A DNA stretch of 29,810 nt. It comes from Phoronis ovalis (taxonomy: Eukaryota; Phoronida; Phoronidae). Positions 696-27,900 of this stretch are shown one piece after another. Below the pieces are notes generated by a model. It was not told the DNA's origin. It did not search any database and was given only the letters and a program-made list of their open reading frames with translations. Numbering within the stretch: position 1 is the stretch's first letter; every line of letters starts with the position of its first letter. The translations under genes were made by a program, and so were the position numbers. The stretch lies in contig JAOXYB010066944.1 in the NCBI GenBank assembly GCA_028565635.1, positions 1-29,810 of the forward strand, read 5' to 3'.

Positions 696-900
696 CTCCC
701 ACCAATTTCCATCATCATACGTATACAGGGATTTAATATTTTTTGTACTATCGCTTCGTGAGCTTGTCTGCATACTAAAAACAAGATGTCCGTCTTCTAT
801 GAAGAGAGCTAACCAGTATTCAGGATTGATGTTTTGGTCAGCAGCATACAAAATTATGCCATTTGGAGTTAAAGCTCGGAATTCTACAGTAATGACAAAG
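696..900 (-). CDS. Laminin alpha: start of LG4 domain
   Basis: LG4 begins in exon 1426-1169 (GVRFGDFNNSHMAFDI, GDAAIFTTR) and continues in exon 900-696: SFVITVEFRALTPNGIILYA, EYWLALFIEDGHLVF and DDGNWWE, with the conserved Trp before the phase 0 donor. LG4-5 of alpha chains bind dystroglycan, heparin and sulfatide. The remaining LG4 strands, its cysteines and LG5 must be beyond base 1. I searched 1-695 on the minus strand for the next phase 0 exon and found none; the only tempting acceptor there opens straight into a stop. Confidence 0.9.
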
Positions 901-3900
901 CTGAAAACCAAAAAAAAATCTTTTACCATTCATGATGACACATGGTTCAGCCCTGAGTGATGAAGACAGAAATGTACAATTATTATAGCAAAATCATAGT
1001 AAGGTTCCATTGCATGCTTGTATAATAAACAGATTATCATTTATTTAGAAATAATTTCCCCCAAAACAGCATCATAGTTACTGTATGTCTACTTAGTTTA
1101 CTTTAGCAATAATACATATTGATACTCTTTCTTTTAAGCATACATTTTTTTTTGAAAGATGTACATACCTTGTTGTAAAGATGGCAGCATCCCCATTTGA
1201 ACCTATATCAAACGCCATATGACTATTATTAAAATCGCCAAATCTTACACCTGTGGGGCTTAGCTGCAAAGGTGCTGGTGGAGCACATGTTGGTGCGGCT
1301 GTCGTAGGTATAGGTGTAGTTGTTGTATAGGGTAGTGGAGGAGAAAATTGTCTTGGAGCAGAAAATCCAGCCAATGAAATGTCACGATATATAGACAGTA
1401 CAGACATGTCCATATATGGCAGGTTACTGGAATAATAAAATCATATTTTCTTTAAAATATAACAAAAGATGATAAACTGTAAATATAAATAGCATGTGGT
1501 TTAGTGTAAACAGTCAGAAGAGCACAGTGCAAAATCTCTGACCTAAAACAGACAAAATATCTTGGATAACATAGAACGTCAGATAGGTGTACCAAAACAG
1601 CTTGTGAAATTATGAGGATTGAATAAAAAAAATTAATTCTTCTGATCGTAATAAATCTTACTTGTAATTCACTTGAATGTTTGCAATTCCGCCAATGAAT
1701 GAGCGTTTCAGTGGAAATCCATTATTTAGTGTAATATCATCCCTAACACCGCCAAAAGATAAAAAGCTGTTGCTATCCGTAATGTGAATTCCAGATGTAA
1801 AAGGCTGGCTAGATTGAATTGTATAGTCATCCACGGTCAAATAAGCCCTGAAACATGGAATTTTAAAGACTATAATTATCAATAGTCAGGATAATTTTAT
1901 ATTTACATAATTCAAATTCTATTGTCAATTAAATTTTTCGTAAATAGGGCATCTAGTGAGATCCTTCTTAAAATCATTTTTGAACAAAAAAAGCTAGTTC
2001 TTTTGCTAAGTTCTAAATTTCTGTGTCGTGCGTTGTCTGATAGTAAACTGCAAGAAGTGCAGGTTCGATATTGATCCATTTGGTAAACTATAGCAAAATA
2101 TAAACTACTGCTTGCAGAAGAAGGACATATTTCCTGATGTACAATACTTCATGTACTAACTTGCAAATAATGTAGGCTATATTAACAAAAAGTTAAAATT
2201 CTCTTTTGAAAGAAATAAGTTTTCATTACTATCTAGGTTAACATCAACAGCATTCATGCGAAATGTATTAATTAATTGGATTTTTATTGTAACTGGACTA
2301 GTATGATATTGGAAGTGTTCTTTTTTTCCGTGTACTTTCATGTTAGAGGTGTTATAATAAGTATGCCATCTAACCTGGCTCCAGATAAATCCACTGTGAC
2401 TCTGTGTAAGACTCCATCAGCAAAGTATTGTCCCAGGGTAATAGCAGGTTCAATCAAAGTCGAGCTTCCCTCAGAGTATTGCAGGTACAAATTACCATTT
2501 GTTAATGCAAGGTAGAGGACAATCTGTAAAATTATCATCACATGTAAGGACAATCATTTGCTTTTATTTCAAAAAATCAAATGAACTTCACTGCACATAC
2601 ACGTTCTTTACATGGAGGTCTAGACGAATACTCTAGTATCATAATGCTAATTTTGATAAGAGTAGAAAAAAATTCATATTACTACAGTTTGGGACAGTTC
2701 CTTGTGAAATTGCATTTTTTAAGAACAAATTTAAGTTTGCATTCACAAAATGTTGTTGAAGATAAAACATATACACAAATGCAACTACGTATACAAGCCG
2801 TCATTAATTTGTGCAATTATACAAAGAATCCGAGTGTACTTAGCAGGTGACTAGTGCACATGGAAGCATTATGATTTAAACCTAGAACATTAGTGTACTT
2901 ATCATCTTTTGTTTCCAAGTATTTTACTGACAATAGACTACTTGCCTGCACTTGGTGGAGCCACTATTGTGACTACCATGCAAACACAATGTTCCCAGGT
3001 TGCACATTAAATTATGGAATCAATGAACAATGCACAGTTCTCGATCTGCACGCCCTTTGCAATTCTGTTCATAATACCAGCATGCTAGGATCATTTGGGT
3101 TCATAAAGATAGCTACACAATGCAAATAGCTTACTGTAAATCCCTTTATTTTCGCGATTTTGTTCAAAAATCGTTTTCGCGAGTAGTAAATTGTGCGAAT
3201 TATCAATCGTCAAATACTAGAAAACTGTTTTTCTAAGCCGGTTACTACGCAGCATGCGTGAAGCGAAAGTAGGTCACTCGTGACTACTAGTTCAATGCGG
3301 GTTTATATAACGTTCAAATTCAAACATGAAGCGGTGGCTAGCTACTAGTACTCCTGACAAAAAATATTTGGAATCTGCGCAAACTGAAGTTGATAATTTA
3401 TTAAATAAAACTCTTCCGACGTCTAAGAAGAGGAAACGTGAATATAATATTTTTAGTGCTGAAATTCATGCAAAAATTGGGAAATATGCGGTGGACAATG
3501 GTAACACAAAGGCAGCTCGCCATTTTGCTACTGATCTTGGAATCTCGTTGAATGAATCTAGTGTTCGAAGTATTAAAAAACCGTATCTTTGTCATCTTGA
3601 AATTAATGGCCAGGAGCACGGTGAAGTGATTGATTTGTCTGGTAGTCCATGAGGCCTACCTACACAACTGGGGAATGAACTTGAACGAGAACTCAAACAA
3701 TATTGTGAAAAGTTACGCGAAGAAGGGGGTGTTCTTAACAGCTTAATATTATCCGCAGCAGCAAGGGGAATAATTTTATACAAAGACAGAACATTATTAC
3801 AGGAAAATGGAGGACCTTTAGCTCTCAGTAAATAGTGGGCAAAATCATTTCTTCGTAGACATCGTTACGTTAAAAGGAAAGGTACAAAAGCCGCCCGGAA

Positions 3901-6900
3901 AGTACCCGGAAATTTTGTGCAACTTAAATCAGAGTTCCTGGAGCATTTATCTATTATAGCAGTTGCAGAGAAAAACATCCCAGATCAGCTTGTAATTAAC
4001 TGGGACCAGACCGGAATCCCCATTATACCAGTTAGTGATTGGACATTGGAAGAACATGGCAGTAAACAGGTTCCAATAAAATGTCTTGACGATAAACGGC
4101 AGATGACTGCATTACTCGCTGTAACACACGATGGGAAAGTTTTATCCCCACAGTTGTTGTATCAAGGCAAAACGGATAAAGTGCATCCAATTTACAATTT
4201 CCATGAATCGTGGGATATTCACCACACTGAATACCATTGGAGTACGGCCGACAGTATGATTCATTTTGTAGAGAAAATTATTCTTCCAATCATTGACCTA
4301 CCACTGAGACATCCAGCTCTCTGTATATTCGATGTTTTTGCGGCTCACAGAACAGTACCTCTCCGGGATTTACTTACTAAACATAATATTAAAATCGTTT
4401 ATGTACCAGGTGGGTGCACTGTTGAATGTCAACCACTGGATGCCCAGCCAAGCCCTAATTTTACCCTAAAAGATGGACTCAAATTTGAATTTCAACTTAC
4501 AATGGTACGCCGAGAATATTATGGCCGCAATGCATGAAGGCAAGGGAGATACAATCCCTCTAGGTCTTTCGAAACTCATGCCATTGCACGCAAAATGGTT
4601 CGTTCGTGCGTATGAAAAACTATCTAGGAACAGGGACTTAATACTGTCAGCGTGGAAAACAACCGGGATTACCGACGCCATAAAGAAAGCTAGAGCAGCA
4701 GAGAACTAATATTTTAACGACTTTAATAACAATGGATTTTATGCTTATAGGACTTTCATTTCAGTAGGATTTTATTTACATTTTAACACATACCTGTATG
4801 ATTTCATTGTGGTTTTAATCTAATAATATATTATTTTAATTCCTTTGTGATTTTACTCAGTGAATAAAGGTGGTGAGTACTAAATTGTTTAAATGTATAT
4901 TCATTTGTTGTTTTTCTTAAAATTTCAAAATGGCGGATAGCCATGCCATACTGAATGGGCGCCGCCATATTGGATTTGCCGATCGTTTTAAATGCGAGGT
5001 ACTAATTTGTGCGAGCTAATGTGCTCGCGAAATTCATGTAAATTAATTCCTCGTGAAAATAAAGGGATTTACAGTAATGTTAAAGTAACACATTCATCTC
5101 TTACTTGTTGAGCAGGGTCCTCTGTATATACCAATATTCCATTAGGATCAGTAGTGGCAAAATCAAAAGAAACGGCTTGTAAATTTCTCAGTGTGGAATA
5201 TGTTCTGTACTGGGCAAATGCTTGTCGACTAGTAAATCTGATGCCTGCTGCCACCTGAAATGCCAAATAAAACTTGACAATTACTGAAAACACGAGTTAA
5301 TACAACAATCATGACATCTATGGTGACACTGGCAAAACTAAAGAGAATAGCTGAGAACAACTGAAGAGGTTGACACAGGTCATGATACAATACTTAGAAG
5401 TGTTAACAACTTTAAAATGGCATTGAATATAAATGATACAACTTTCAAATTTAGAAATTTCAAAAATTCTCAGAAAGGTGCAATAATCATGTTTGCCTTC
5501 TTGTTATTGACAGTTGTAAAACAGTTGGATGTACTATCATACTACAGGGTGTAAAATTATCTTACAGTTGGATAACATCCAGATAAACTGATGTCTTGGC
5601 TGGCAGCAATGCTTTCATTCAGTAGTCTGCGAGTCAATGGTGAAGTTGATCCACTAAGCTGAAGAGTATTAATGCAGCCAGCAAAACTTGAGTTTGGTCC
5701 AGGGCTAAAATAGAAATATTTGAAAAATTCACTAATAAATCAGGTATATAAACAAAGGTTCCCAGGATGTATTTTTCATATTTGTGCAAGCCTTATATTA
5801 ATAAGAGTTTTGTAGTTTTAATGGCCTTCAGCATATCACAAAACAAAAAGTTAGCACAAAACACTAATTCCCTGTATATTTTAAAATCAATGGCAGCTAA
5901 AATCAAACTTAAGATGTAATTGAGCACATATTAGGGGCCAACCCAATAATTAAAATAGGATTCTTAACTTGGTTTGCCAAAAAAAATAACAACAAAAAGG
6001 TGATCAAAGTTATATGCTCACAAAAAAGTCATATGCTCATCAGCTGCACAATGACCACAAACACAAATGCATGCTTGACTTGCAACAGTATCCAGTTTTT
6101 AAGATACCAAATAGCTTATCTCGAGAACAAACATGGTCACCAGTCTGTTCTGTTGGAAGTGATTTGACCTAAGTCTGTGGTGTACATAATTATGTATGGA
6201 AGCATGCAGTGGGTAAATGCTATATTCCGCTGCTCTGCAAATGGGAAAATTTGGCTTCAGGTTAAAAAAATCCTGCCAAACATTAAATAAAGATCGACAC
6301 TAATGCGTTTTATCTTAAGAGAAAAAATAAAAAATTAATACCTGTCTACAACATCGGTAGTTTGTCCTCCAATAAAAAGTCTGCCATTAGTCAATTGAGT
6401 GAGATTGATTTGAGGTGCAGACCCAAATTTAAATTCACTTTGACTGGTCTGGGTTCCATTAATACTTCTGATATACAACATAGCATATGTCTCATTGTGC
6501 AAGACAGTAGTCTACAAAGGTTAGTGAAAAATTAATTCAACATAGTCAGAAACAGACTGGGTACAATCATTTCTAAAATCGTTTTTACATAGTTTAATCA
6601 TACAGAGCTGGTACATTCCCTTTTGAAATGTACAAGGGGATCGAAGGCACTGTATGCATATTTTACATTATGGATTACATATTAACTATAATCATGCATT
6701 ATTATGTCTAGCGTAGAGACCCTCAACCATCTATGGTATACAATTCCCATTTAAAGTCTACCATCCCTATAGGGCAAGACTGACAGAAGCAAATTATTTG
6801 CTTGTACCATATTTTTGATATCTATTGAGGATATCTATTGTCAACATACAAATAACCATTCATGATTATGATGATTGGAATGTCATCAGTCAGTTTTAAC

Positions 6901-9900
6901 TTTAAAACAAACTTAGACCATAATTAATGCTGCGCAATTCAAAACACTGCTTTATGGGCTACTTTCTCAAATAATCATGTTGCATATATATATTTTTTTA
7001 AATACAATAGATAAAGTGAAGTTTAATTCTCATAATAATCAGCATCCTCTACCATACCTCAAACCAGCTTCCCGTGTTGTACACTTTATCACTTTTAATG
7101 CTGTGATTTCCAGCTTGGGATCCATATTGAAATAGCAGATGGCCATCAACTAAATATATCCCATAATACTGAGTACTTCCAGGCTGATCAACCAGTAACA
7201 AAACAGCATTCGTGCTAAAAGTTCTGTGTTGTAACATCACTTGTGACTTGATACTGACATCAAAAGCTTCAAGATTCAATTGAAGATATCCAAAACCGTC
7301 AAAACTTGTCCCTGACATTGTTGTTGGTGCAACTGATGGAGGTTGTGCGCAACAGGAAGTGTAACCAGCTATCCGTTGCTCTTGCCATAAATGTAATAAT
7401 TGATGGTTGTATTCCAGGTTGTGGATACACCCAATAAAGCCATTATTAGTCACTTTGTCAGTCTACAAAGAATGCAAACATCAATGGATTTCTGAGGTAA
7501 CATTATTAAGTTTAAATGTATCTTGATGTATGCATCTATCCCTTCAGAATGTTTAAAACAGTGGGCAGGAATTCAGTGATAGATAATAACTTTGCTGTTA
7601 CAGGTTTAAGTCATAAATAAATCTGCTTTTAATTTATAATAATACAGTTAAACATCAGAGAGAAGTTTCCATCAATTCTTAATAAAAGAAAGGGGAATCC
7701 TGCCCATAAACTCTTGTAATGGCTCAAGCTTAGGTTATATTCATCAATACATTTTTGGTTGGGGTCAAAGCCTGGGTGAACATTCTGGATTTAAGAAGTT
7801 ATATACTAATTAATATACTTTATTATGTAATTGTTTACAAATGCAGGATGTAGATTAATATCATTAAGAATTTTATCATTCAAGTTTTAACATTTCAAAT
7901 TAACAGCCGACAACTTTTTAAAGAACAAATTATTATCTATTTTCAGTATTTATTTAATTAATATTCCTACAACATACTGAACATTATTTTAAAAAAGAGA
8001 ACAGAAACACATACGTGTATTTAAATATTATTTTCAGCTACCTGATATGATGTGGGTAATCCAGCAATATAAAACTGGTTGCTAAGCACCAAGACATTAT
8101 TTGTTCCACCTCCGTCTGCAGAGGAAACAGCAGTACCCCCAGTGTCAAGTCTGGTAACTGTTAATTGGCCTGCATTCTTATATCTAAAACAGGAATAAAT
8201 ATGAAAAGAATAATTATGCAAATCAAGGTTAATACCAGTCTGAATAAATTCATCCGTTAGTGTTCAGTACATTCTTAACTAACTTCTGGGCTTTACATCA
8301 TAGTCAATTTTTGTTTATTATCTCAAGAAGCAAAACAATCATGATAATCCTTTTATTTCTATATAAAGTGTCACAAAATCTTAACACCAATCAAATTGTA
8401 GCTTACAATAATAGGTGTAACAGGGACTAAGCGGGATCAAACCTATTCAGAATAAGTCATCGTGATAGAATAAATGTGGTAGGCGATGATGGATCGCACA
8501 GAGAGAAAGGCTTATCTCGGTTTAATGACATAATTATTTTGCTTGTGTTAATATGAAAGAATATATTAACAAAAATTGACAATAGTTAAGCCATGACGTT
8601 AGTTGGAAAGGTCCGGAACACAAACGGATAGATTTATTCAGACTGGGTTAGTACACCAAATGAAATGAGACTTACCATCTGGGTTTCGCTAAATATAACA
8701 TGATTATTATATAATTTAGCATTAAAATTTAAATATTATTAAAATGTCATTTTTAACTTGTCAACTGACATTTGAAAAATACTTGCAAAAGTTTGTTTAC
8801 TTAGGTTTTCTGAATCTAAAAGTGCAATATTTTTACATAACTATATTCCCACATACAACAATTATTAGCAGTCTTGACCCTGCTTATTCATAAGCACCTG
8901 CTTATGAATAAGCAGGGTCATGACTGACACTAACAATTCACATTTGATTAACTTCCAACAGTAAATCAATAAGAGTTTCCTCTATTTTATTGCAAGACAG
9001 TATTGATCTAAAGACACTCATTTTAATTTAAATGTCAAAACTTGGAATCACCATTTTCAAAAGATTTAGACAGTCCTCAAATCTTGATTTATTTTTAGAA
9101 ATTGCTTTCACTGCTGATGATTAGAAATTTAAAAGCAAATAATCTCACCTTGTGGCCACAACTTTGAACCAACAGCCATCACAGATGTTAGCGAGGCTTG
9201 ACAGCTCGACAACACCACTGCCAAGATTAAACCGGTAAACAATGCTACCATTCACCAGCTGAATAGATAAATGCGGCAACAAAAGAAAAATATAATTTCA
9301 TACAGTTTAAACTTATTTTCAATGCAACAAACTATTTATTAACCTATTAATTAAAAACTTTGGCTGAACATGAAACTATTAGAAATAAAAATAACTTAAA
9401 ATACACTACATGATACTAGAAATAAGCTGAACAGCTTTCAATGCCAGCATGCTAGTACTCAGTTTAACAGCATGATCCACAGGCTCTAGGGATATATACA
9501 ATGAATGCTTACCTGAAGGGAAAGTTCTGTTCCTGTTGCAGGGTCTTCCACAAAAAATAAAAGTCCCATGCTTCCATTTTGTGTTCCCAATTCCAAAGCA
9601 ATTTCACTGGATAATGATGAAACTTGTGGATTTGCCATTGTGACAGATGCATTACCATAGAAGCGGACCGGTTGTTCTAAGTTTTCAGCCAGTAATTTTG
9701 CTCGAGCTAGCTTGGCTTGAACCGTAGCCATTTTGTTGTTGATATTTTGACGAAGCTGATCAGTTGTAGCTTTTAAAGTCTCCATTTGTGTCACAGTCGA
9801 CTGGACATTATTCAGTGTTGTGTTGTATTGTGAGACTGTAACAAAAAAAAGTTGCAACTTTATATCTTTCACAATATGAACTGAAACATAAACCTTCACC

Positions 9901-12900
9901 TTAACTATCCAACTAATATACAAGTCAAATAAGACAATAAATAAATGAAAAAAAATAAAAAAATAATAGAATTGTACTCTTTTTCTTTATTTTGATATTA
10001 AATTTATGTCACTTTGTTCTCTTTCATTGTGGTATATACAATAATAAGTAAAATTTCAATTGATAATTAAAAATATTTTAAAAATTGCTCACAAGAATTA
10101 GTGATTTCTGTCATCAAAACAGAAACGTTATTCACTGTGGTTTGAATGACAGCTACAAGATTGTTTTGACTTGTCAAGTTTTGTCGATGTCCGGTAGTTT
10201 CAGTCAAAATCTTCTGAGCCTCAGTTGTAACTTCGTTAGATGTCTGCTGTCCCAGGAAGTTTAACTGGGTAATAGTTTGATCTGCAAATGAATAGGCATG
10301 CAAATTAAACAAAAACATAATTCAGTATTTTTTCAGAATATCATCCATTTTGTGGCTGACGTGTTGTTTGTTCTCTTTGTCGATTTACACAACTATTAGG
10401 TAGTGTTTGGGTTGCATTTTACGCAAAACGTGTGACGAAGAACACCTGAAAATATTAAATCAATGGCTAGTATATATGTTTAAGTATAGTTAATATTAAC
10501 GCATATATAGTCATGAAAGGTTGGAATGAAAGTGGTTCGGTTTACTATTGGGAGATGCACCTTTCTTCGGTTTATAATTTTAAACAGTAAAAACCTTTAT
10601 TTAGCTAATAAAAGGTTCTTGACAATCTTGTTTTGGTAGCTTAGAAAAATTAACAACATTTTCATATTCTGTGTTTCTTTGTTCTTTTATCATCTAAGTA
10701 ATGTGGAACAAATTTAAAAAGTATGAGTTAAAATTTGTAATAAAATCCTTTTATTTGCTTAATAATCATATTATGATGTGCACTGCTACAAGTACATGTA
10801 GCAGTAGTTTTGCTAAAACCTCTTTTATATGAATTACTCAAAATCATGTTCTACTGAATATCTCTGTTGAGATTTAGTTACAGTTACTTTAGAGAACGGA
10901 AGATTCTTAGATACGAGCATCGAGCTACGAGCAAAATATGTGCATCTGGCACATACGTTAAAGCACGTCTGTATATAAATATGGATTTTTACTAGATGTA
11001 ATGTTTTTTTTATTTACTTGTCGCTTTAACTGTCATGGTAAATGCACATATTTCACTTGTTACTCATCATTGAGAATCTTTAGCTCTCTATTGTCAAAAG
11101 AATTCTTACCAGCCATAAGAGTCTGTATGTTGTTGACTCTATCTTGAACACGGACCATTTCAGCATTTATTTCCTGCCACTGAGATATGCTGGACTGAAG
11201 GCTGGAGTTAGCATTGACCAGTCTCATATTAACAACTGAAAAGATTTTTTACAAATTGAGACTTGAAACTAGAAACATATTATAATCAGGTTTTATTTGA
11301 TGTCATCTATTAATCATTTCAGTTAATAAATTCTTCTAAAACTAAACTCAAAAGTGTAAGATTTGTAGCAGGATTATTCTTTATTCAAAATAGTCTTCTC
11401 GTGGCTGTTCCATCAGCTGATTTACCCCTACTTGCTGTTTTTATGCAGACTGATACAAACTACCAATCAATTACAATAATATGATTATATAAATAATTAA
11501 AAGGATTTTATTAGAAAACAAAATTGTAGAGAAAGAAACATGTATTATATGGTATCCATGATAATAGTATGGTACCTCATATGAATAGGAACAAATTCTA
11601 AACAAAGCTAATAACAATTATTTTTTATTTTAATATGCTTGATTTGCATGACTGTGTAGTATTACAAGGAGACTTTAATACCCATGCATGAGAAGACTCT
11701 ATTGGAGAATAACTGGCGTTAAAACACAAGTATTTAAAAAACAAAACCTCGGCACAAAAAAGAAAATATTGTTATAGTACAATGAAATTAGCATAAAATC
11801 AGTTGAAGAAAGATCCTTTACTGTAATTATACAATCATGTGATTGAATTAATATATCTATAGTATTTATTCGTACCATAAAAATGCCAGCTACATGTTGA
11901 ATCAGTAGAAGCCTCTGGCATTTGTTTAATTTTTTATGGCTCTTGGGGGCTTTTTCATAGTATTTTAGGATCGTCTAATAGAAGGAATGTTGTCTATTTG
12001 AAAAACATGGTTTTAAAATCTTAAGTAAGTACTTAAATACTTTAAATTATTATACCTCGGTTTCAGCACTGGAAATACAAAAAGATTTTCATAATAAAAA
12101 ATATACTTTTCTCAATTCTGCTATCAAGGCAAATAATTATATAATGCTGCTTTTATTGCAAGCGAATGTCACTCACCAGAGGGAGTCCCAATTTTAGCTT
12201 CTGCTCTGAATAAAGTACTTCCGCTGAGGGCTCGTGAAGTATTAGCTTGTGCTTCTAAATCTGATACAGTTACCCTTTCAACAGCATTAAGGGCCTGCAT
12301 CACAGTTTTGTTGGCCTCCACGGCCAAAGTTAAAGACTCATTCAACATTGCAGCCACAGTTTCGTAGTTTGTTATTGCATCAACAGCTCGTTGACCACGA
12401 GATTCAACACTTTGGAATTCCCTGGAAACAAATAATTCTGAATCAGTTTTCATAGAACTGAACATCATGGAAATCTATCTCAAAATAATTAATTTTAATA
12501 ATTAAAATCTGTAATCCGCCGCTTTTTGCTAATACATATTCAGCACCAATTTAGACTACCAGAAAATACACTGTATTTCAATCAAAATAGCCTCTCAATA
12601 TGTATGTCACAGTTTGGTCTTTCACATGTATCAAGTCACAACAACAGCTTTAATGACCACTTTAGAGGATAGTGCATGACATTCATTAATTTTTTATATT
12701 ATTACCTTAAAATGTTCTGTGCCTGCAGAGTAAGTAACTGAGTATATTGTTCACTTTGAGTGATATATGTGTTGTTACTGGTTATGCTATCTCGAGTCTG
12801 ATTAATTAAAGATTCCAAAATAGCTGCATCAGTTAGCCAACCAGTAATAGCTATAATGACATGAAAATATATCAGATGGCACAGTTATGCAAATATCTTA

Positions 12901-15900
12901 AACAAGTGTGATATGCACATGCACTTGTATGGAAACAAGCAATCAAGTAGCCTCTCAGCTGTCTTTTTTCATTATAAATCAATAGAAGTATTCCAGAGGT
13001 GTGATGTACTACTTTTTACTTTGATTCATTCTTTTATTGGAGTGAAAATAAGAAATGAAACTAGTACCGAAATCAAACTACTTTGAAATTAAAATATTTT
13101 ATTTATATAATATTAAAAAATTTTGTAGAAACATAACTTACTGTTATGTTGTGCCTTCTAATACGGAACAATAAACTTTAAGCATAATTTAATAAAAAGC
13201 ATTCTTTGTTATAGTTTCACATTTCAATTTAATAATAAAGAGTGTCAAAGAAAGTTAACATATCACCATGCAGCTCAGATCTGCGCTTATTTCACGGATA
13301 AAAAACTTACATGGCAAGGTTGGCGTGATAATACAATGTCCCCATAAGCTATCTGAATCAAAGTTACTTGTTGTTGCACACCATAAAACAGTGAAATCCA
13401 CATCAATACACTGAGTGTATGTCACTCCTTGATATATAAATGGAAACACGCAAGGCGCACCATTTGCATTTCCACGCTCTGTATATATGCGGTACCCTAA
13501 GCATACACAAGCAAAAAAGCTAAAGGAGACACAAATGGCATTTAAAGGGAATCGTTCTTTCAAGCTTTTATCAATCTGCAGATAAGCAGGAAAGTGAGAT
13601 CACATGACCATTAGGATAATTTCAGCAGAAGGGTGAAAGGTCACATCCATTACTGGTTGAGAGTGATATCACTGCTCAGATACATAAATCATATTTAGTA
13701 TTACCTATGAAACTGAGCAGATTGAAATATTTACAAAAAGAATGCTTTTTGACACAAGTTTATTGCATTTAACCCATAGGGATGTCTGTACAAAAAATAG
13801 ATCAAATACATTTACGGATGTTAAAAGCACACAGACATTTGATTCAACACTTTTCTTGGCCTGAATACAAATGTATGATGTCAGAAACACTGACATTATG
13901 TCAGACCAACAATAAAATAGCAACAGCACAGGTGCAGAGCCGAAGTAACAGGGTAAAGGGGGTTGTACAATATCATATATACACAGTAACAAACCTGAGT
14001 TGTCACGACCCTCATAGTTAGCCAACGCTTCTCCAAATGAAGTCACTGCCACTGCATAGTCTCTCTCAGCCTCTAATATCACGTAAGTGGTGATGTTTAA
14101 TAAAGTTACAGCTTCAGCAAACAAACGCTCAGCATAAGCCATGTTTTGCTGAAAAAAAAAAATAAGAATAGACATGAGCGCATAATAGTGTACAGTTCAT
14201 ATATTAACAGCATCTGTTTCAAATTTCAGGACTTTTCAGCACCATTTTCATTTTAATTTTTCAAGGCCTTTAAGCAGAAAGAACTATGAGGGTTTGGAGG
14301 CATACATGTATCTCTGAATTTTTTTTATATTTATCTTCTTGGTCCTTTGCTGCTCTTTATACATTTTGATCCATTGGTGATGTCAATTGATTTTCAAGGA
14401 TGTCTTAGGATATTTCATAAGGCAATTTCAATTTCAAGGACTTTTGAGGTAACCTAACAAGTTGAAGCATTCTCATTCTCTGTATGCACATGATAGATCA
14501 AGTGTGAAGTAAACAATACAGGGATAGAAGTAAACAACTTGTATAAAGTTTGCCTTAACTTGCACCAAAACTTCTGCATAATTATGATGTGGTTAATTAT
14601 GAAATTAAAACATCTAATTTTCATGCACTGACAAGTTGAAATTTCAATGAAGGAAAAACTTTGTCATTTGATGATATGTTTAAGATATTTATCTTGACAC
14701 ATAAGAGGCAAAAACTCAAATACAAATATGGTTTAGAGCATGACGACATACTAACTTGCAAAAATGATCTCCAGTAAAACATATATTTTTATAAAGGACC
14801 GCATGGACCATTATTGCTCAAGGTTACATAACATATCAATACATTGTATGATTTTGATTACCAAGAGACAAAATATGCCATGGTCTTACCAGTGACTGAT
14901 TGAAGACTGTATGGGACTGAACTCTTCTTGCATTTACACTCTCAGTTAAAAACATGACATCTTGAGACGTCTGATTTAGGGATTTCAAATCATCATGCAT
15001 GGTTCTACTACTGTCCTCCAAACGCCTCAGATATTCATCCTGTAATTGTACAACGGTAAGCACATTACAAACGATGAATAATTAAATGTCACAGGCTTAT
15101 TTTCTTGAAAAAATATGAATACCATTAATGTAAATGTAATAAAATATAGTGTCGCTTACTTGAGCTGGCTATGTGTCTACTTGACATACCCCTATGCAAC
15201 TGGTACATACTGAGCCGCTTTATACCTGTGGTCAGCCTCAATAGATGATGTAACAAATTAGCTATTTCAATGCCACCTTGAGCTTTAACCATGTAATTAG
15301 CACAGTTTTGGTACTCATATTTGAACAGTTCTGAACTATGTGATTGTTGTGAAACATACATTTACAGTGTAGTCATTCTTTGGCAGTGATTACTAGCTTT
15401 AGCTTTATTAGTACATCAGATAATATAATGAATGATGTGATTTTCACTTTATGGTCATAGTACAAGATTTCTTTGTGTCATCTTTGCATTAACAGTAGTA
15501 ACCGCAAATATAAGCTTATATTAAAATAAATAACACAGTTAAGTACCTCTGTCACTACCAAATTTTCCATCCTCGTAACACCATCAGTGGTATTTCTCAG
15601 CATTGCTGCTTCTGCTGCAACTAGTTGAAGTTCAGTTCCAAATGTCCTGCCCAGTTGAGAGTTAATGGCTGAAGAATCTGCCAACATCCTATTTCCCTCA
15701 GTTATCCAGGACTCGTAAAGAGCGATCATAGCATCAGCAGTTTGTTTTGCTGAAACTACTTGACCATGCAGCAAGCTGGCATTTGATTGGATGTACTGAA
15801 CTCGAATCAGTTCTGCAGCTGCTGTAGATTGAAGAGATTGTGACGTTTGTAATGCTGTGTTTACCTATAAGAAACAACACTATTCATTATCACTACTTGA

Positions 15901-18900
15901 TAAAGTTTCTATTGTGAGAATGTATTAACATTTTGCTTTAAATGTAAGTGTACATGTACATAATACCAAACGAGATAGACATCTCAGTACAGATTCCTAC
16001 TCTTAAAATCCAGTTATAATAATTAATAATTCTAAATCATAGTTTTCATATGACAGTGATTAAAGTACCTGCCCAGTAATTAAAACTTACTCTTTGTATA
16101 AAATTTTTAACTGTATTATTAAAGTTTCCTTCTTGTGATGTTAAGTCTGTCAAAATCAACGTCATGTTTGACAATCTGTTCGCTGAGAATCCAAGACTCC
16201 ACAAAGTGTCATTCAAAAGTGTCTGAATTGCTTGAAGCTCCATATCTTGTTCATGCAATTGACTAATGACATTAGTTGTGGTCCAATATCCTTCCCAACG
16301 AGACTGCATTGATTTTGCATCTCTACCTACAGATTTCTGACAGCTACCACATTCTATAATTGTATATTAATAAAATAACAGAGGGAGCATTACGACACTG
16401 AATTCCTCATTGAAGTTAAACACATTATAACTGTAGTTATGTTTTAAAATTTATTTTTATTAGTAAAACTAACAAAAGTTACATAATAAAATTAATTATC
16501 AATCATTCAGAGTAGTTAGATCTTGTTAGCCAGCGGAATGCAGGTAGGACGATGTCAAAACACAGTCAGACACTCTTACACCAGCAGTAGCAGTACAGTA
16601 GATATATAGAACCGTGCCATTATTTTTATGAAACATTCCATAAAACCCACAATTTCAACTGTTACAACAGAACTTAGATTTTTGCACAAATACTAAAAAT
16701 AAAAAAGTGTGTGTATTGAATACTCCAAATTTATTAAAAATATCTATTTACATGAAAGTAAGTTTAACTTACTCATTTCAGGTTGGATATGTTCTGATTC
16801 CACTAGAGTAATGAATGATGAGAGATACAATGTGATGAGATATACAATGTACTGTCTCACCTGTACATCCAGCACTTGTAAAATTATAATGCATGAAGTC
16901 ACATTGGTCACATGTCCTTCCAGATACACCTAGTTTGCATTGACATTGCCCTGTCACAAGGTCGCATGGTTCTGTGTAATTTACCGAGCCAACAGAATCA
17001 CAAGAGCAGTCTGGAATTATTAAATTCAAATAAAATTATTATTAAAACAAAATAAATTAATATAGGGTCTGAATTAAGAATGCATGCCCAGTTCTATTAC
17101 ATCACTATACCCTTTAATTTCATTATAAAGTTCACATGATATCACATGTCGGGTATCATATAAATTTTAATGTGGCAACTTGATAATTCGGAAGATAGAC
17201 TATTTCCATACCATGCTATACCTATTCCCATTGCCTAAGGGAGTTATAAAACACAAGTCATATATACACAAGTCAAAGCATTGTTGATTGCAAATAATTT
17301 AACTCTGTATTTGTAGACACTGATATTTATATACCAGTCCTTCAGAGTATGTAAAACTTTATACTTCCCACCTCCTTTAATTATAACTTTCAGGTGTCTC
17401 CAAAACAGTTCTTAGAGATGTATATTATATTATTATATACTTGGTACATGCAGACCATGCATTCCACAGTCACATTGTTTAGAAGGACATTAGACACTAG
17501 TTATTTGAGGAGAGCACTTACTTGTACAAGGTTTTACTGGTAACCCCCACAATCCTGGGGCACACTGGCTACAGTTATAACCTCCAGCATGTGTCCGGCA
17601 CGTACAGTGACCATCTATGTCGTCACACTGTAAGGTTTCACTACCATCAGCATTACAGGTACATGGAATGCAACCTGAAGACATATAAAAAGTAGAACTG
17701 ATTCAAAAAAACTTACTTTCCATAAACAAACAACTTTCAAAAATATTTTTTTTTGTAATTATTAATAAAATAGTAAATATTAATGAATTACTAGGATGTT
17801 GAATAACTCTTCACAGCTACTGAGTCAAGTTTAAAAACTTAATTGCTGTTTTTTATTTTAATTTACATTCTTGAAGAATTTGTAATTAAAATTAATATAT
17901 TAGATATTTATTAAATTAAACCAATCTGTATCAAAGTATCAAACAAGTTGAAAGTTAATCAATTAAAGAACGAAACTAGTAGATTCCTGTTTATTTATTT
18001 ATTGAATGCATAAATGCTTAATAGTAATAAAAAAATAAAATAATGACTGTGTTATATTTTGCTTATTTTGAACAGGAAAAAATATAACTCTATGATATGT
18101 ACACTGAACAGATATATTTGTACATAGAGTCTAAGACATCTAAATTTGTAAAATAATAATCCTTTAGATACCTGTGATAGAACCCACGGCATATCCCCAG
18201 TAGTTAGGCATACATCTGTCACAAGTTCTGTTACCCACACCTGGTAAGCAATCACATTGTCCACTTGTATGATTACAAATGGAAGACTGGTTAACGGTGC
18301 TCTCCAAGATGCAGTTACATTCTAAAACAGTATTATATAGTCATGTACAAATGATTAATGAACCAACTGAGTGCATCCTACTGGAAAACTCAATATGTCA
18401 TGTTAATATTCAATCCCCCATTCAAATAAACAACTACAAACATTTAATAGTAGAGTATTATAACGCACATCCTCCTGCCTGGGCAAAAGAGATCTGTTCA
18501 TTCTATATTATTTTTTTTCCAATAAACACAAAAAAAATGTTTACAAGTGAACAACAGCTAAATCAACAACCATTCAAGCTAGTTTAGTGGATTAGCAATT
18601 TGAATGTTTAACACTCTTTTTAGAACAAATGATTTAAAAAAACTCACAGCATTACAAAGTTGTGACTTAGAGAATAAATGTCATACAAGCAAAATATGCT
18701 ACATAATGTCCAATAGGTGACATATTCAGGAACAATGTCCAATAGGTGACATATTCAGGAACAATGTCCAATAGGTGACATATTCATGAACAATGTCCAA
18801 TTGCTGACATATTCAGGAACAATGTCCAATAGGTGACATATTCAAGAACAATGTCCAATAGGTGACATATTCAGGGACAATGTCCAATAGGTGACATATT

Positions 18901-21900
18901 CAGTAACAATGTCCAATAGCTGACATATTCAGCCAATAGGTGACATATTCAGGGACATGTCCAATAGGTGACATATTCAGGAACAATGTCCAATAGGTGA
19001 CATATTCAGGAACAATGTCCAATAGGTGACATATTCAGGAACAATGTCCAATAGATGACATATTCAGGAACAATGTCCAATAGGTGACATATTCAGGAAC
19101 AATGTCCATAGGTGGCATGAAGCAGATATGACGTCCAGTTTCACTAGCACATATATTATGATATATTAGCTTAATCAATCAAGCACTGAGAATGTGAAAT
19201 TAAATAGACGTATCTCATGGCTATTCAGTCAATTGATAAACGACCTATTTTGTGTGTTTATGTACATACAAACTGACAATCAATTACACTACAAATAAAG
19301 GTTTATCTGACTTTAAAAAATCAGGAAACAAAATTATAAGAAAAAAAATTAATGAGTAGTTACTATCATTATATTAACCCTCAAAGGAAGAAATTCTGAA
19401 CATAATCTTTATTTTGAACAATAATCAATAATTTTGAACATTTGTAATTTTTATTTTAATTAATGCTTAGTTTCAATATAGTATTGGGGGAGGGGCTGGA
19501 ACAACCCAATAAAGGTCTATTGCCTTATTATAAACAAGTAAACTGTATAACTTTTATCATAATTGTTTCTTAGTTAATGGGCAATAACTAACACGTCTAG
19601 TGGGAAGGAAAGATTCAGATTCTATTTTGAGGGTATATTGTAATTAATTATGTTTAGTTACCTTGACAAGACTGCAGAGAAGCGTCCCCAAAAAAACCAT
19701 CACGACACCACTGACAGTTATAGCCCGTTGTGTTGTAACTGCAGTCTAAACATTCTCCTGTAGTCTCATTACACTGCTGGGAGTTGGCATTACAATCACA
19801 GTGTGTACAAGTCCCAGTCACAAGTTCTGTTGGATTTCCCCAAAAGAATGGTTCACAGCTGCAAACATAGGTAATGGTTAGCAGCGAGCAATCATATCGT
19901 ATACAATGCCTACATGGAGAATTTTCACAATCCTTGAAAAAGGTATAATTATAATTATACTATATACTCAGCATCACTTATCTTTATGTAGTTTTTTAAA
20001 GCTATGATTATACATACTTAGCATCACTTATCTTTATGTAGTTTTTTAAAGCTATGATTATACATACTTAGCATCACTTATCTTTAATATGTAGTTTTTT
20101 AAAGCTATGATTATACATACTTAGCATCACTTATCTTTATGTAGTTTTTTAAAGCTATGATTATACATATAATGTGCGCAGAACAAAATAATAATATGAC
20201 ATTAATAAATGTAAAATTGTTTGTAAGGAGTATGAAATATTTAAATTAAAGTAATTAATTAAAAGCAATAAATAAATCATGTTACTATTAAAAATGAAAC
20301 AAATCTTCATTAGACATGATTGTTTAATATTTTATATTAATATACCTGTCACATAAATTGCCTGTGTATCCTACGCCACAATATGAACATTGTACAGTTC
20401 CATTCACGTCCTGTGTGCAGGTATTGTTAACGACTCTTGGTTCATAGCAAGGACAAGATGTACAGTCACTTGATGTACCCTGGGTAGCATCCCCATAGTA
20501 ACCATTCATGCATATCTCACAGTTTGAACCTGAAATGTTTGAAATTATTATAATAACTATATAATTATTTTTAATTGATTTTAATTTGTGCCTAGTAAGT
20601 AATTATAATTATTATTTTTAGTTAATAATTTCACCTCAGACTTTGTCACATCTATATAATATATTTGGTCCCCTATCTAACATGATGATTTAAATATTGT
20701 TAGCAATAAAACATGGTAATTGGAAGATTGTACAGTAATTATAATTTATGAACTTTATCAAAAAAAGAATAATTACTACAATTTATATTAAGCAGTTTTC
20801 CTACCTGTTGAGTTATGCAAACAGTTTACACAGATGCCAGTATCAGGAGCACAGTAATCACTGTGCCCATTACAATCACATGGTACACACTCGCCAAGAT
20901 AAGAGTGCGAGGAAACGTTCATTCTTTTATACCCATAAGCACAGTTCTATAACAATCATTTATTCAATCATTAACAATTAATAACAACTTAAGTTAGTAT
21001 TTTAACCAAAAACAACCCAACATTTTGTTAATGAATGTCCATGGGTTTTACCCTTAGGCAATTGTGGTATAAAATTAAGTTTCATGCAAATTCATGTAAT
21101 TCCATTGTGTTGTCGCCTGTACTAACAATATATACAGACTGAGGCTAGATCCTAAATATAAGAACTGATCCAGGGATCCAGCAAAAACTAAGTTTTTTTA
21201 ATGACAAATCGGAAACTTTCCCTTAAATATGAGTTGTTGCGGTTATCATAACCAAGCTGTACAAGTTGATAATTTTTAAATTTACCTGACAGGACAATCC
21301 AGTGTAGCCTACTCCACACTGGCATTCTTCAACATCTGTCTGTCGCAAACCGGAAAGACTCACATTAGAGACAGTAGTGTAAGTCACGGCACCAAAACTA
21401 CAAAAACATCATTCAAAATATGAATTGCTTAAACTGCCCTTTAGCACTGAGAATATAAATCAGTGTAAATTAAGCTAAAACTGAATTTTTCTTGAAATTG
21501 TCCAAATAAGTAAAATATAGCCTATTGAAGGGCAGCTTGAGTTCAATGCTGACTTATAGTTTGCACATAAAATTTACAGAAAATTACAAAACATAATATA
21601 TAACATGCACATCATACATTTATCTTGATATCATTACCAATAATTAAAATAAATAATTATGCGTAGGTGTTTATTTATAAATGAGGTATGAAATAGGATG
21701 GGGATGATCATTGTGTGACAGTATGTGACAATTCATATCATTCTCAATATTATCGATTACACTTACCTGACTTGATGTCGACCAGTAAAATAAAGAGCTG
21801 GTATGGATAGCTTCTTCACATCAGATATGGCTAGTAAAAATTCACCACGTGTCAATGGTTGATTAGTTGTATTTAACAACCAATCAGATTCTGTCATTCC

Positions 21901-24900
21901 TAGAGTCAGGGTTACGGAGGAGTTTGGAGCAACACTGAGAACTGGTTGAAAAAGAGTGACATCATTTCTTCCAAGCAAGATGGCAGAATTGTCAGAAACA
22001 ATGTGACCGGGTTCAAATGTACTATATATAATAGTAAAATTAACTTCACTGCCATATCTTTCCAAAAAATTTCCAGAAAATTGTGAAGGATGTTGCCAGT
22101 ATAATTTGCTTGAGCCACTTAAATTTGCCTGAATATACTGGATGCCATTTATATCCTGCAGCATTCGTGAAATATTCTGATTGCCTGTTTCAACAAGATT
22201 GAAAGCTTGCAAAGTATTTTCAGACACAGGAACATGAACCTGTAAGAGATGAACATCAAAAGATTAATTAAATCATAGACTATTTGCATGCACTTGGTGG
22301 AGCCACCAGTCTCAGACCCAAACGATCCCAGCACGTCATATTCTGTGAATGAACAATGAACATATGTAGTTCTGCGTGCATTCATGCGATTCATTCACAA
22401 AATGCATCCTTCGCATGCGGAGCCAAAACCAAAGAAAAATCTTATGTTCTTTGATCTAAGAAATACTCTCCTTTTTTGTAAGCATATCAATACATAAACA
22501 ACTATTTATTAATATCTTTTTATTTTGTTAAATTTTCATTGGTTAAAGCTCTTCAAAAGTAACATTTAAAAAAAAAAGGAAATTTTGTGTATAACTAAAG
22601 GATGCTGGTATTGAAAGGGTCTGACTGTAGCGCCCTCAAGTGCATGCAAACAGAGAACTAGCGAATGACTGATTACACCCTTTGATTAGCTACCAGAATA
22701 TTAAGCTCTATTTCAGAAGTCTTATATTTTTTTCCTGATTTTCTAATAACATAAATGTTTGTATACACTAAACATTCAGTAACATCGTTACAGTTTAAGG
22801 TGGCTGAAGGGGTTTATTTTGACATCACTTACTATATCTTTGAACCATCTAATGCTATCACAGTTTGATGTAATACCCATACAGATACAATCCAGGCAGC
22901 CATTCTCATGAGTGGTTGAAAGATCAAAACTCCCAGCAATACACGTATCACAAAGCATACTCTCAGTGCTGGCCTGAAAGTAATAATATTCATAAGAAAT
23001 GTTTCCTGATGGTTAAAGTAAAACGGATTTAAATTGATCTCGCTGTCTGTTATTATTATACACATGATCATGGTAGATTCATAGGTCATAACAGTAAATG
23101 CTACCAACAAATAACAAAGTCATCTTTTGACAAAATTCTCTAACATTTAGTGCGCTGTAGATTAGATTAGTGACATTGGTGTAATACTATTATATGAAAA
23201 TACCTTGCAAGGACACTGTCCATCTATGGCATCGCACGTGGAATTCACACTTCCTCTCTGATCACAACCACAGTCAACACAACCAGTGACAGAAAAATCT
23301 TTGTAACCATTCATGCACTGGTTACATTTCTCCCCACTAACACCTGGCTGACAGTCGCATACACCTGCTGTAAGGTTACACTGCAGATTAGTGGAACCAG
23401 TGTTGTTGCACAAACAGTCCTGCAATCAAGATTTATTTAATAGTCATATCATATAATCGCAAATTTGCTAGTGGAAGCAAATCTTACAGCAAACAATTAG
23501 TATGATCATGGCTTATAATTTAATCAACAAATATTTTGTGCTTTCAAACAAAGCTTATTAAATCATCCTCCTATCTACGTTAGTGCTGGTGACCCCTGGT
23601 GGCTAATGAAGATATGATGGTATTGGTGAGAAGTATTTAAACTTTGTCCGGAACTGAATGACATTTAAGGAGACAATGATACTATTATTTTTTATTTACA
23701 ACTGCAACTATTTGCCATTTTTAGTTGAAAATAACACAATTATATTCATTTTTTTTAAATATTAAAATATTAAATAACTTAATATTTTAATTATAATTAT
23801 TTACAAAAACAAACAAATGATGGTTACATGATATAACTTTCACCAATAATAATGATAACAGTATTATAAGTTTTATTATTTACTAATATTAAAAGCCTCA
23901 TCACGGATGTAGGTCGGTCGTAATTCCGACTATGCTTGAGGACTTTGATGGACAATCAACTGAGTTCGTATCAGTTGTATATTCGGAGATTTTGTAATAA
24001 TTTATTATAATATAATATATAAAAGATTGGCTTCATTATTTCCATTTCATGTCCTATGCGACCCAGGGATATGCTTAACGATGCTTGTACATTGTAGTCT
24101 GAACTGGTGTTCGTATATCGTGAAAAAAGTGGCTGTCGATTGTACACACCTTTGTGACACCACAACAGCATTTATGCTGTTTGCAATGTCTTATGATGTT
24201 GTTTTATAAAAGAGATTGCCATCATAATGACCTATCACTGTTATCAACTTAAAAACAGTCTGTGTCTTAAATCTAAATACGACTAAAGCTTCTAAAAGTA
24301 GTCACAAGCACATTCAAGCCAGTTTTGAGATGGCAAATCATTTCTGGTACAGGAGAGTAACAAAAGTTATACTAAAATACTATAATTTAAAAAATAATCT
24401 AAATTGCCTCTCATCTAATTCAGAGCATAATTACCTGGCATCCTTCGACCTTCCTCCAGTTCCAGTAATTGGCTACACAAGAGTCGCATGTCCTACTTTC
24501 AGTATTTGGAGAGCATTGGCACTGCCCGGTAGTAAAATCACAAATAGGATTAGTGCCAGCACAACTGCATGCTGGAATTACGGGAAACAACTAATCAGAC
24601 TGGATTCATCTTATGTAGATTAGAGATATTGATGGTAATTATGCTAGAATACTTATTTTAAGACTAATTGGTAATACATATTAATATATTGCGTTTCTCA
24701 CTCACAAAGGTATTAATTACTTTAATTTAAAGAACATCGAAATGCTATAAACATTGACAGCATAAAATACATCTTACCTGTGCAACCATCTTGAGAAAAT
24801 CCAAAATACTCCAATAAGCATACATCACAAGTTCTACCACCAACACCAGGTTTACAAGGACATTGACCGCCATATTTGTTACACGTGTTATTAACACTTC

Positions 24901-27900
24901 CTGTGAGATCACAGTTACAAGCCAAGGCTCCATTAAAATATTGTGTCACAATGGAAAATATCCTACTTTCACAAGACCCTGGTTGTGTTGGGCCAATTCT
25001 ACAATTGTGCGAAAAGTAATTGAAATGAAGAGGACAATACTTCTAGTGTTCTTTCAAATGTAAGACGTGGAACAGTAAAATAATTAATAGAGACTTTTTC
25101 TTCAAATTAAGGCCACCTAATTAACATTAAATGAATCTTATGCACATCCAATAAGGAAGTTGACAATTTGAATAACTATATATTATAAATCATTACTAAT
25201 TAACTACATAATGTTAGTCATTAAGAAAATTTATTAAAACACTTGCAGCATTCCTTACATGTTAACCAAAATTTATAAGCCTTAGGGACAAAAGCAATAA
25301 ACGGTAAAAAAAATTAAAATTGGATGGTGGTTTTAATGCAAGCTGCTAAATTATTGCCAAATATGTTCAAAGTATGCAAAAACTAAAAGATAAATAAATT
25401 AATCAAAATTATAATATCTTTCACAAAATAAATGCTTAATCCATTTAATATTAATAATTATATAAACTTTAAAGTTAATATTTAATTACAATTTTTGTTA
25501 ATTTTTTGCAATTCTTTTACAATTTATTGCCAACTTTGGGGTAAAATCCTCACAAAAGTTATTAATATTAATTTAAATTAATAGGCATTTTAATATGTCA
25601 CCTGCTTATTGTCAGACTATAAAGCACTAATGACTAGCACAATTAATTGATTCATATAAGTATATTATATAATGCCATGCTATCTGCATAAATATAAATT
25701 ATATATATTATGCTAAAATTTAAAATTTAAATTTTGGACAGATGCATAATATTATATTATATCATACCAACTGTTCACGATGCATGTACGCACACCAGAC
25801 TTGAGAAGCCTTAACCTTAACACTCCACCTCTCATTCAAGAGTACCGGTCATGCAAGGGGAGTTAATAAAATGTTCCATTGATTGAAATGGTAATGGTAT
25901 ACATAATTTATCTCACAAAAAATACAATAACTAAGCCACAACAATCAGATTAAACTTACAAACTAGAATTAGTTCCATTCCTCCTGTAATTAAAAAAGAC
26001 AACCGTACAATTAGTGTCAATTAATATTATAACTATTAATATTATTTCCGAAAAGACTATTTGCATGCACTTGAGGGCGCTACAATCAGACCCTTTCAAT
26101 ACTGGCATCCTTTAGCTATATGCGCAAAATTTGTTTTTAAATCTGACTTTAGAACAGCTTTAACTGGTCAAAATTTAACAAAACAAAAAAATATTAAGAA
26201 ATAGTTGTCAGACTGTTTATGTATTGATAAGCTCACAAAAAGGAGGGTATTTCTTAGATCAAAGAACATAACTTTTTTTTTGGTTTTGACTCAGCATGCT
26301 AAGGATGCATTTTGTGAATGAGCACATGCAGAACTACGTCATTGTTCATTCACAGGATGCGATATGCTGGGATCGTTTGGGCCTGAGACTGGTTGCTCCA
26401 CCAAGTGCATGCAAAATAGTCTATTGATGATTAATAATTATTGAATCAATTGTATTCATTTCACTTCACCTCCAACGACAGTCAAATAGTTTAATGTTGG
26501 ATTTGAAGTACTTCGATTTTTTAATAATGGTTGCAAAACAATTTACAAACTTTATTTATTGTGGACACAGTACATGATAATGCTATTGCATGGAATACTT
26601 ACGGAGAGCCATTGTCCATTACATCACATTGAAGGTTAAAACGTTCATAATTCTCACCAAGAACTTTAGATGTGTTATAAAACTCATATGGAATAACAAC
26701 TACTCGATCCTAAAAAAAATTCAAAAACAAAGTTAACTTAAAAATGTCTAAAAGCATGCTGCCTATTAAAGATTTTGACTCACATTATAATAACATGATG
26801 GGAAAATTCAAACATTTTAACTACTATTTAATACCGTATATAAAATTAAATTAACTTTAACAAAAAAGGGCTTTTATTCTCAAGTTATGTAAAATTCTGT
26901 TTATCTGAAACAAACAAGTTCACTTCTAACAATGAAACTAGGTGTCTTGTTACATTTCAATATCTCAAATAATAAAATCACAAATTCATGACAGTCATAT
27001 AGTTTTGTAAGAAATCCCTGACTTTCATTAACCAACAAGAAACGGACAATCATGTGGCATTGGCTTTGAATAGGATATTTTCCTATACCAAGAAAGAAAA
27101 TTATCCGCAATAATAAATTAAAGTGTTAATACTCACAATGAGAAACTCGTTTCCAGATCTTTCTGTTATATTCACGTTAATAGTATAGTCTCCAGAATTT
27201 AAGTTATGTGGTGAGATTGTTTGACCTAAAGTCACATAACACCATATCTCCAAACATACTGAAGTTGGAAGAAAGTTCACTTCTCCAACTATTGCCTCTT
27301 TACCTGTATAAAAAGATGATCGGAACTGTTAGTTATTTAAAAAGTTGTGTAAGTAATGTAATGCAAAAAATATCTAAAACAGCTAACAAAGTGTACTAGT
27401 TTTAATTATAATAAAATAAATTAATTTGTCAATTATAATAATTAAAGTACTTCATGTCAACAATTCGAAGGTTTTTTTAAACACTCTCTGTTGTAATGGA
27501 AATTACATGCACCCTCAACCTCCATAACTACTTTTTAAGGGATATATTACCTCGTTGCTGGAACAAATCTTTTTTGATTTCAAAGCTAACATAATAAAAT
27601 AATATTCAAATAATGACATTTAGCTGACAAGTAAGTTACACGCCAAGATCTGTAATTGCTGATTCGATAGTGGACAATTCACAAGACAGTATTGAAATCA
27701 TTCTATATTTTGCTACAGACAGTAATCAATTCATGTTTAGAATACTTCAGAATGTTTCTTTCAAACTTTCTTACCCGCTTGGTTTACAACAACATTTCCC
27801 GTAACTTGTAAGCGAGCAGAGTAGCGAAGACTGATTAAATAATCTCCGCTTACATTTACACCGATTGGTGTCGGTGGAACTGTAAAATTGGTTTCAACAG

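Follow-up and report, generated by a model that had tools for sequence, protein, structure and literature searches.

A laminin alpha gene of Phoronis ovalis with a fibronectin type II exon in the middle of its coiled-coil region

Introduction

Laminin alpha chains are major components of the sheets that underlie animal tissues. Those of the alpha-1/alpha-2 type are the closest known counterparts of the gene discussed here, and the resemblance extends to LE repeats, a Laminin_B domain, a cysteine pair, a coil of about 575 residues (the inserted module not counted), the laminin G domains LG1-3, a linker and LG4. The differences lie in the coil, which here holds a fibronectin type II (FN2) module halfway along, is low in charge and is matched by neither Laminin_I nor Laminin_II.

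Are there precedents for a laminin arm of this kind? L-beta, in the laminin beta chain, is an interruption of about 30 residues. It is a cysteine-rich segment that, as described in PMC6744579, breaks the heptads within the long arm; it differs from the present case in that it sits in the beta chain and is not an FN2 module. Docking of a partner in the central laminin coil is known from the agrin-binding site, but that site lies in the coil, and the passages of PMC6744579 that treat it mention no inserted module. According to the same source, laminin coils have kinks and breaks and beta1 has L-beta, so that the first-pass annotation of this DNA put it too strongly when it credited known laminin alpha chains with an uninterrupted helical region. 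As for the module, exon shuffling is described (PMC3927612) as the way in which the matrix metalloproteinases MMP-2 and MMP-9 came to have FN2 modules within another structural unit, although theirs are three in tandem and lie in a protease domain.

Both parts of the gene are familiar, and it is the combination of a laminin alpha chain with an FN2 module that is likely new. To our knowledge, no laminin alpha chain with such a module is known, and no laminin carrying one is described in the open-licence literature among the matches listed (titles and beginnings of abstracts).

The laminin alpha gene

The window, that is, the whole stretch of DNA that was analysed, is a contig of 29,810 bases (C4205) from an assembly of 77.4 Mb in 4805 contigs. 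Its minus strand carries one long gene of 38 exons, joined by hand at GT-AG sites, which runs past the contig at both ends; the spliced frame has 7112 coding bases and gives 2370 residues without a stop. In the order of the protein, the features are the following:

16861..28919, minus strand, exons 1-18: EGF repeats, a globular domain (residues about 88-300), EGF repeats, Laminin_B and EGF repeats (Pfam and exon chain)
14890..16353, minus strand, exons 19-21: start of the coil: the cysteine pair CGSC (residues 1034-1037), followed by heptads
13995..14148, minus strand, exon 22: coil exon that precedes the module, phase 0-1 (exons 19-22 jointly show heptad periodicity)
13311..13496, minus strand, exon 23: FN2 module, 186 nt, phase 1-1; alternatively 13311-13478, 168 nt
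12706..12850, minus strand, exon 24: coil exon after the module, phase 1-2, aligning with exon 7087-6930 of contig C3378
9513..12421, minus strand, exons 25-28: remaining coil, then the start of LG1
1169..9258, minus strand, exons 29-37: LG1-LG3 and the Thr/Pro-rich linker between LG3 and LG4 (Pfam Laminin_G)
696..900, minus strand, exon 38: first part of LG4 (Laminin_G_2 at 27.8 bits, over positions 1-55 of the 126 in the profile)

The domain order is that of a laminin alpha chain: laminin EGF repeats, Laminin_B, a heptad region of 575 residues, LG1-3, a linker and the start of LG4. Nine pieces of the protein and one version without the FN2 module were searched with Pfam; residues 761-1029, which were left out, are EGF repeats by eye. 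EGF_laminin (175.8 bits) and Laminin_B (57.1 bits) both precede the coil, as laminin alpha requires, and the coil is followed by three Laminin_G domains and the first part of a fourth. LG1-3 are collinear with the laminin alpha-1 mini-E8 5mc9 (query 27-549 on chain 61-583), and the gap between LG3 and LG4 is a Thr/Pro-rich stretch (LPYTTTT at residue 2247), in the place where laminin alpha chains are reported to have a linker (PMC11260871).

LN domain matches are present on other contigs of the assembly. Amid the EGF repeats of the gene itself, residues about 88-300 (24998-28422) form a globular domain with no Laminin_B match, possibly a diverged L4 or LF domain; its only match, to Endotoxin_C, is marginal (21.8 bits at a cut-off of 21) and is taken as chance. 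The introns hold further elements. Between exons 34 and 35, on the plus strand (3311-4706), there are open frames that we take to resemble a pogo/Tigger DDE transposase, and self-comparison finds tandem repeats in laminin introns at 18705-19118 and 19950-20169.

The coil around the module

Does the module lie inside the coil? The first-pass annotation had placed it in frame within the coiled coil of a laminin alpha chain, and the exon chain, the Pfam matches, the collinearity of LG1-3 and the heptad signal all support its place in the heptad region of such a gene. The coil begins after CGSC, with residue 1040 as the start chosen by the analyst, and stops before EQPVRFYG (1678); it is laid out as 288 residues, the FN2 module and 287 residues. 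Hydrophobicity has a 3.5-residue period on both sides, with z of 18.1 before the module (1040-1327) and 5.3 after it (1391-1678), and this period is absent from the three other regions examined (z -0.9 inside the module, -0.8 in LG1-3 and -1.0 in a stretch of EGF repeats). Single-sequence AlphaFold2 predicts exon 22 as one helix from residue 2 to residue 50 of 51, at a mean pLDDT of 94.

Two other features of this coil count against our main reading: Pfam Laminin_I and Laminin_II do not match it, with or without the module, and its charge is low, at 19.1% and 16.0% in the two halves versus 32.3% in the coil of C3378, another laminin gene of the assembly. A PDB search with the downstream coil returned no match among 177635 sequences at E up to 1.

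The fibronectin type II module

Exon 23 (13496-13311, minus strand) translates in the frame of the gene to GYRIYTERGNANGAPCVFPFIYQGVTYTQCIDVDFTVLWCATTSNFDSDSLWGHCIITPTLP. The four cysteines and the signatures CVFPFIY, LWCATT and WGHC, from which the exon had been recognized at first sight, are all present in this frame. The profile search proposed at that stage agrees: Pfam fn2 matches with 60.7 bits against a cut-off of 22.2 (E 1.3e-16, profile positions 1-42 of 42), and in the genome-wide fn2 search the same exon scores 61.5 bits. The coordinates and phase first given for it also hold, as do those of its neighbours at 14148-13995 and 12850-12706, the phases being 0-1, 1-1 and 1-2. When exon 23 is left out of training, the codon log-odds are 13.3 in the frame used versus 0.9 and -3.6 in the others. 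A search of all six frames of the window meets an fn2-like four-cysteine pattern a single time, and 200 first-order Markov windows have none; a scan of viral contigs gave eight pattern matches and no relatives.

The cysteines of the laminin module are spaced 14, 10 and 15. The 19 four-cysteine fn2 modules of the assembly, this one included, are what remains of 20 fn2 matches after one that lacks a cysteine was set aside; spacing 14 is found in all 19 and spacing 15 in 16, and the middle spacing is 10 in seven and 11 in the remainder. The best PDB match is MMP-9, with E 5.9e-36 over the whole chain and 53.4 bits in its best single module, and among solved FN2 modules those of the gelatinases MMP-9 and MMP-2 come nearest. 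A single-sequence model of the module has four strands, but its mean pLDDT is 57.7.

Is the module a recent arrival or a relic? Its identity to the other 19 fn2 matches of the assembly is 31.6-53.3%. Since the best value is no higher than this, the module is no recent duplicate, and a copy in decay would be unlikely to retain four cysteines and most of the aromatic core; the module therefore looks old and maintained rather than dead.

Splice sites and gene prediction

A small gene finder was trained on the laminin gene of the window and run at exon penalties of 6, 9, 12 and 15. All 38 exons are recovered at penalties 9 (with two extra) and 12 (with none extra), and 37 of the 38 at penalties 6 and 15. 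In eight further runs, at the four penalties, the training set lacked exon 23 alone or exons 22-24, and each of them nevertheless includes the module. The same eight runs choose the acceptor at 13478, 18 bases downstream of 13496 and in frame with it, which gives an exon of 168 bases, still of phase 1-1; this weighs against the exon edge of our main reading. A penalty of 3 overpredicts (79 exons, 33 of the 38 exact; 74 exons and 32 exact in the leave-out version). The acceptor at 13575 chosen there is out of phase with exon 22 and was rejected, and the penalty was then raised.

At 0.5, the acceptor at 13496 has the lowest score among the 38, the next lowest being 3.7, a gap that is exaggerated because training excluded exon 23 and included the other 37. 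The donor has a good score (7.1). Blanking it costs 4.8-5.4 score units relative to the best other path, so that inclusion of the exon is favoured, not forced. The alignment with MMP-9 starts at query residue 2 and runs across RIYT, which speaks for 13496. The 5' edge of the exon may therefore be 13496 or 13478, and the fn2 core is whole with either.

Related genes in the assembly

Two further laminin alpha-type genes are found, on contigs C416 and C3378, the latter with a regular, charged coil; they are called alpha-type on the strength of their LG matches and coil-like frames together. Matches to Laminin_II (PF06009) prove nothing on their own, since the six in the genome are all below the cut-off and control genomes match in 8 of 14. 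The genome profile search finds no fn2 match on C416 or C3378. The gene models of both contigs have one stop each at penalty 9 and none at penalty 12, and one coil exon of C3378, missed by the gene finder, was read by eye.

The insertion site was compared with C3378 alone; C416 seemingly holds only the last part of a coil. When the module is removed, the C3378 exon 7087-6930 aligns with exon 24, gapless from about residue 1400 past YET(I/V), and the introns after the two exons fall in the same aligned column, both in phase 2; with the module left in, the alignment is scattered. The similarity between the two coils is weak by phmmer (best domain 6.3 bits, E 0.0003 with one target), which counts against our main reading, and the match starts about 10 residues into exon 24. 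The C3378 exon has 158 bases and exon 24 has 145, so that their upstream borders lie 13 bases apart, in phase 0 versus phase 1, and MAFFT without the module leaves a gap of eight residues just after the joint of exons 22 and 24; on both counts the exact correspondence of the borders is uncertain. Since C3378 is without the module but has the next intron in common with the window, the FN2 module appears to lie at or near an older coil intron. A module exon that had been inserted into an intron would be expected to end up in such a position.

How are FN2 modules built into other genes of this animal? Exon phases were compared on C428, C3054, C178, C2122 and C477, with C1383 and C2570 left out. 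In the gene-finder models, five modules (two each on C428 and C3054, one on C178) are single exons of phase 1-1 and 156-168 nt; on C2122 and C477, the exons that encode the modules have phase 1-2. The model of C477 has three FN2 modules, at 4468-4908, downstream of what we take to be an astacin-type protease (HELLHTLGLYHE). C1383 has nine fn2 matches, in one cluster of three (6.5-6.9 kb) and another of six (12.3-13.3 kb); one of the nine lacks a cysteine.

Of 32 contigs that were tested, most of them only in part, 22 are linked by dispersed repeats: the window, C3378, C416 and 19 others. Seven contigs have repeats in common with the window directly, and C3378 and C416 are joined to it only via others such as C3054. 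One dispersed element is present in the window as two inverted copies of 82.6% identity (22275-22653 and 26057-26424) and occurs also on C1450 and C3054, which helps to link the contigs. These shared repeats suggest that the window, C3378 and C416 come from one genome. The sole cox1 match of the assembly (C1114:9800-11600) has six TGA inside, and the 1801 bases compared are not linked to the window by shared repeats. Over a stretch of 516 codons on C1114, we take eight TGA to stand where Trp is expected, 16 ATA mostly for Met and 10 AGA/AGG mostly for Ser; this usage agrees with table 5, the invertebrate mitochondrial code, and so points to a bilaterian, probably a protostome. A sponge, which size and base composition had first suggested, was rejected on this ground, since sponges use code 4.

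Residues of the ligand site

FN2 modules of fibronectin, matrix metalloproteinases and mannose receptors are reported to bind gelatin, whereas triple-helical collagen is bound, in the same account, only by the mannose receptor and Endo180 (PMC4635314). That source states that in Endo180 gelatin binding was abolished by mutating Tyr193, Arg206 together with Asp208, or Tyr219, and likewise by a glycan added at position 179; it describes DEC-205, which is not believed to internalise collagen, as having no Tyr193, Arg206 or Asp208 (PMC4635314). Other ligands are possible for FN2 domains, as PDC-109 is reported to bind phosphorylcholine (PMC2823774).

The corresponding residues of the laminin module were placed by their offsets from the cysteines, in Endo180 numbering. 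The equivalents of Tyr193 and Trp225 are kept, Tyr219 is replaced by Phe and Phe227 by His, and the loop that should carry Arg206 and Asp208 is two residues shorter and has no Arg, with two Asp at other offsets. Only one of the four residues critical for gelatin binding in Endo180, Tyr193, thus has its equivalent here. The aligned MMP modules have two more residues in this loop, mostly with an Arg, which are absent from the laminin module. Of the 19 four-cysteine modules of the assembly none has an Arg in the loop; a loop without Arg is thus maybe general in this animal, and is no proof against any binding.

Alternative explanations

How is the FN2 exon best explained? We consider it probable that this is a laminin alpha gene with a shuffled FN2 exon in mid-coil, whose module is predicted to be a looped-out docking knob on the long arm. 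Ordinary exon shuffling through introns would have brought in the symmetric exon, of phase 1-1, midway along the coiled-coil region, where an intron was already present at or beside the site. Both halves of the coil would still form the alpha strand of the heterotrimer, and the module would protrude from the side of the long arm as a small looped-out knob held by disulphide bonds, in much the way that L-beta interrupts the beta chain. Its likely job would be that of an extra docking site in mid-arm, which the L-beta interruption and the agrin-binding site in the central coil make plausible.

A sub-case of this reading makes exon 23 a cassette, included in some transcripts and skipped in others, which would give arms with and without the knob; we regard this as possible but somewhat unlikely. 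Skipping keeps the frame (...GRDNSAITGWL..., no stop), and the exon has the weakest acceptor of the gene with a second one in frame just downstream. Weak splice sites are common in regulated exons. Exon 22, moreover, is predicted to be helical almost to its end. Symmetry, however, is expected of any shuffled module, and removing its 62 residues would shift the heptad register by one, whereas the best register counted through the module is the same on its two sides (in 6 of 9 overlapping windows before it and in 8 of 10 behind it). That such splicing would give a plain coil and a coil whose looped-out docking module tethers a new partner in mid-arm is unlikely; if true, a regulated knob would let the laminin arm tether a matrix protein, a glycan or a membrane phospholipid. 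The weak acceptor would also suit a non-functional exon that is not spliced to the coil, be it a pseudo-exon or part of another gene nested within a laminin intron. This is very unlikely, given that the four-cysteine module is intact, the donor is good, the strand is right, the phase fits on both sides and the divergence from all other modules excludes a recent copy, while inspection of the frame list for the 1.1 kb interval revealed no second exon of a nested gene. As for an FN2 exon wrongly joined to a laminin contig during assembly, the assembly is indeed fragmented, but the 861-base stretch with exons 22 and 23 matches only itself in it, and frame and phases fit on both sides; such an artefact is extremely unlikely.

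Another question concerns the partner of the knob. The first-pass annotation had proposed that the module ties the laminin arm directly to collagen or gelatin, and this bridge now appears distinctly unlikely. In its favour are the kinship with the gelatinase modules, the two ligand-site residues that are kept and the collagen IV C-terminal (C4) domain matches in the assembly, several each on C4385, C316 and C4334. One more C4 match, on C2865, has three stops inside; judging from these sequences, the animal probably has collagen IV. The absence of the Arg206/Asp208 equivalents and the changes at Tyr219 and Phe227 speak against the bridge, as does the want of an Arg in the loop of all 19 modules; moreover, the module stands single and isolated, whereas gelatin binding by MMP-2 is described as the work of three cooperating FN2 modules with a KD of 10 uM (PMC4635314). 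On sequence grounds, gelatin or collagen is therefore not the favoured ligand of the predicted docking knob.

Significance

Few matrix proteins of animals are as conserved as laminin, whose long arm is commonly regarded as a plain rod. If a folded module is indeed set within the alpha strand, the trimeric coil can accommodate large inserts, and evolution can add new docking sites halfway along the rod. The gene would also be a natural test of how laminin assembly handles insertions, and it offers an example of a module shuffled into an extended helical region, for which the second alpha gene, without the module, provides the comparison.
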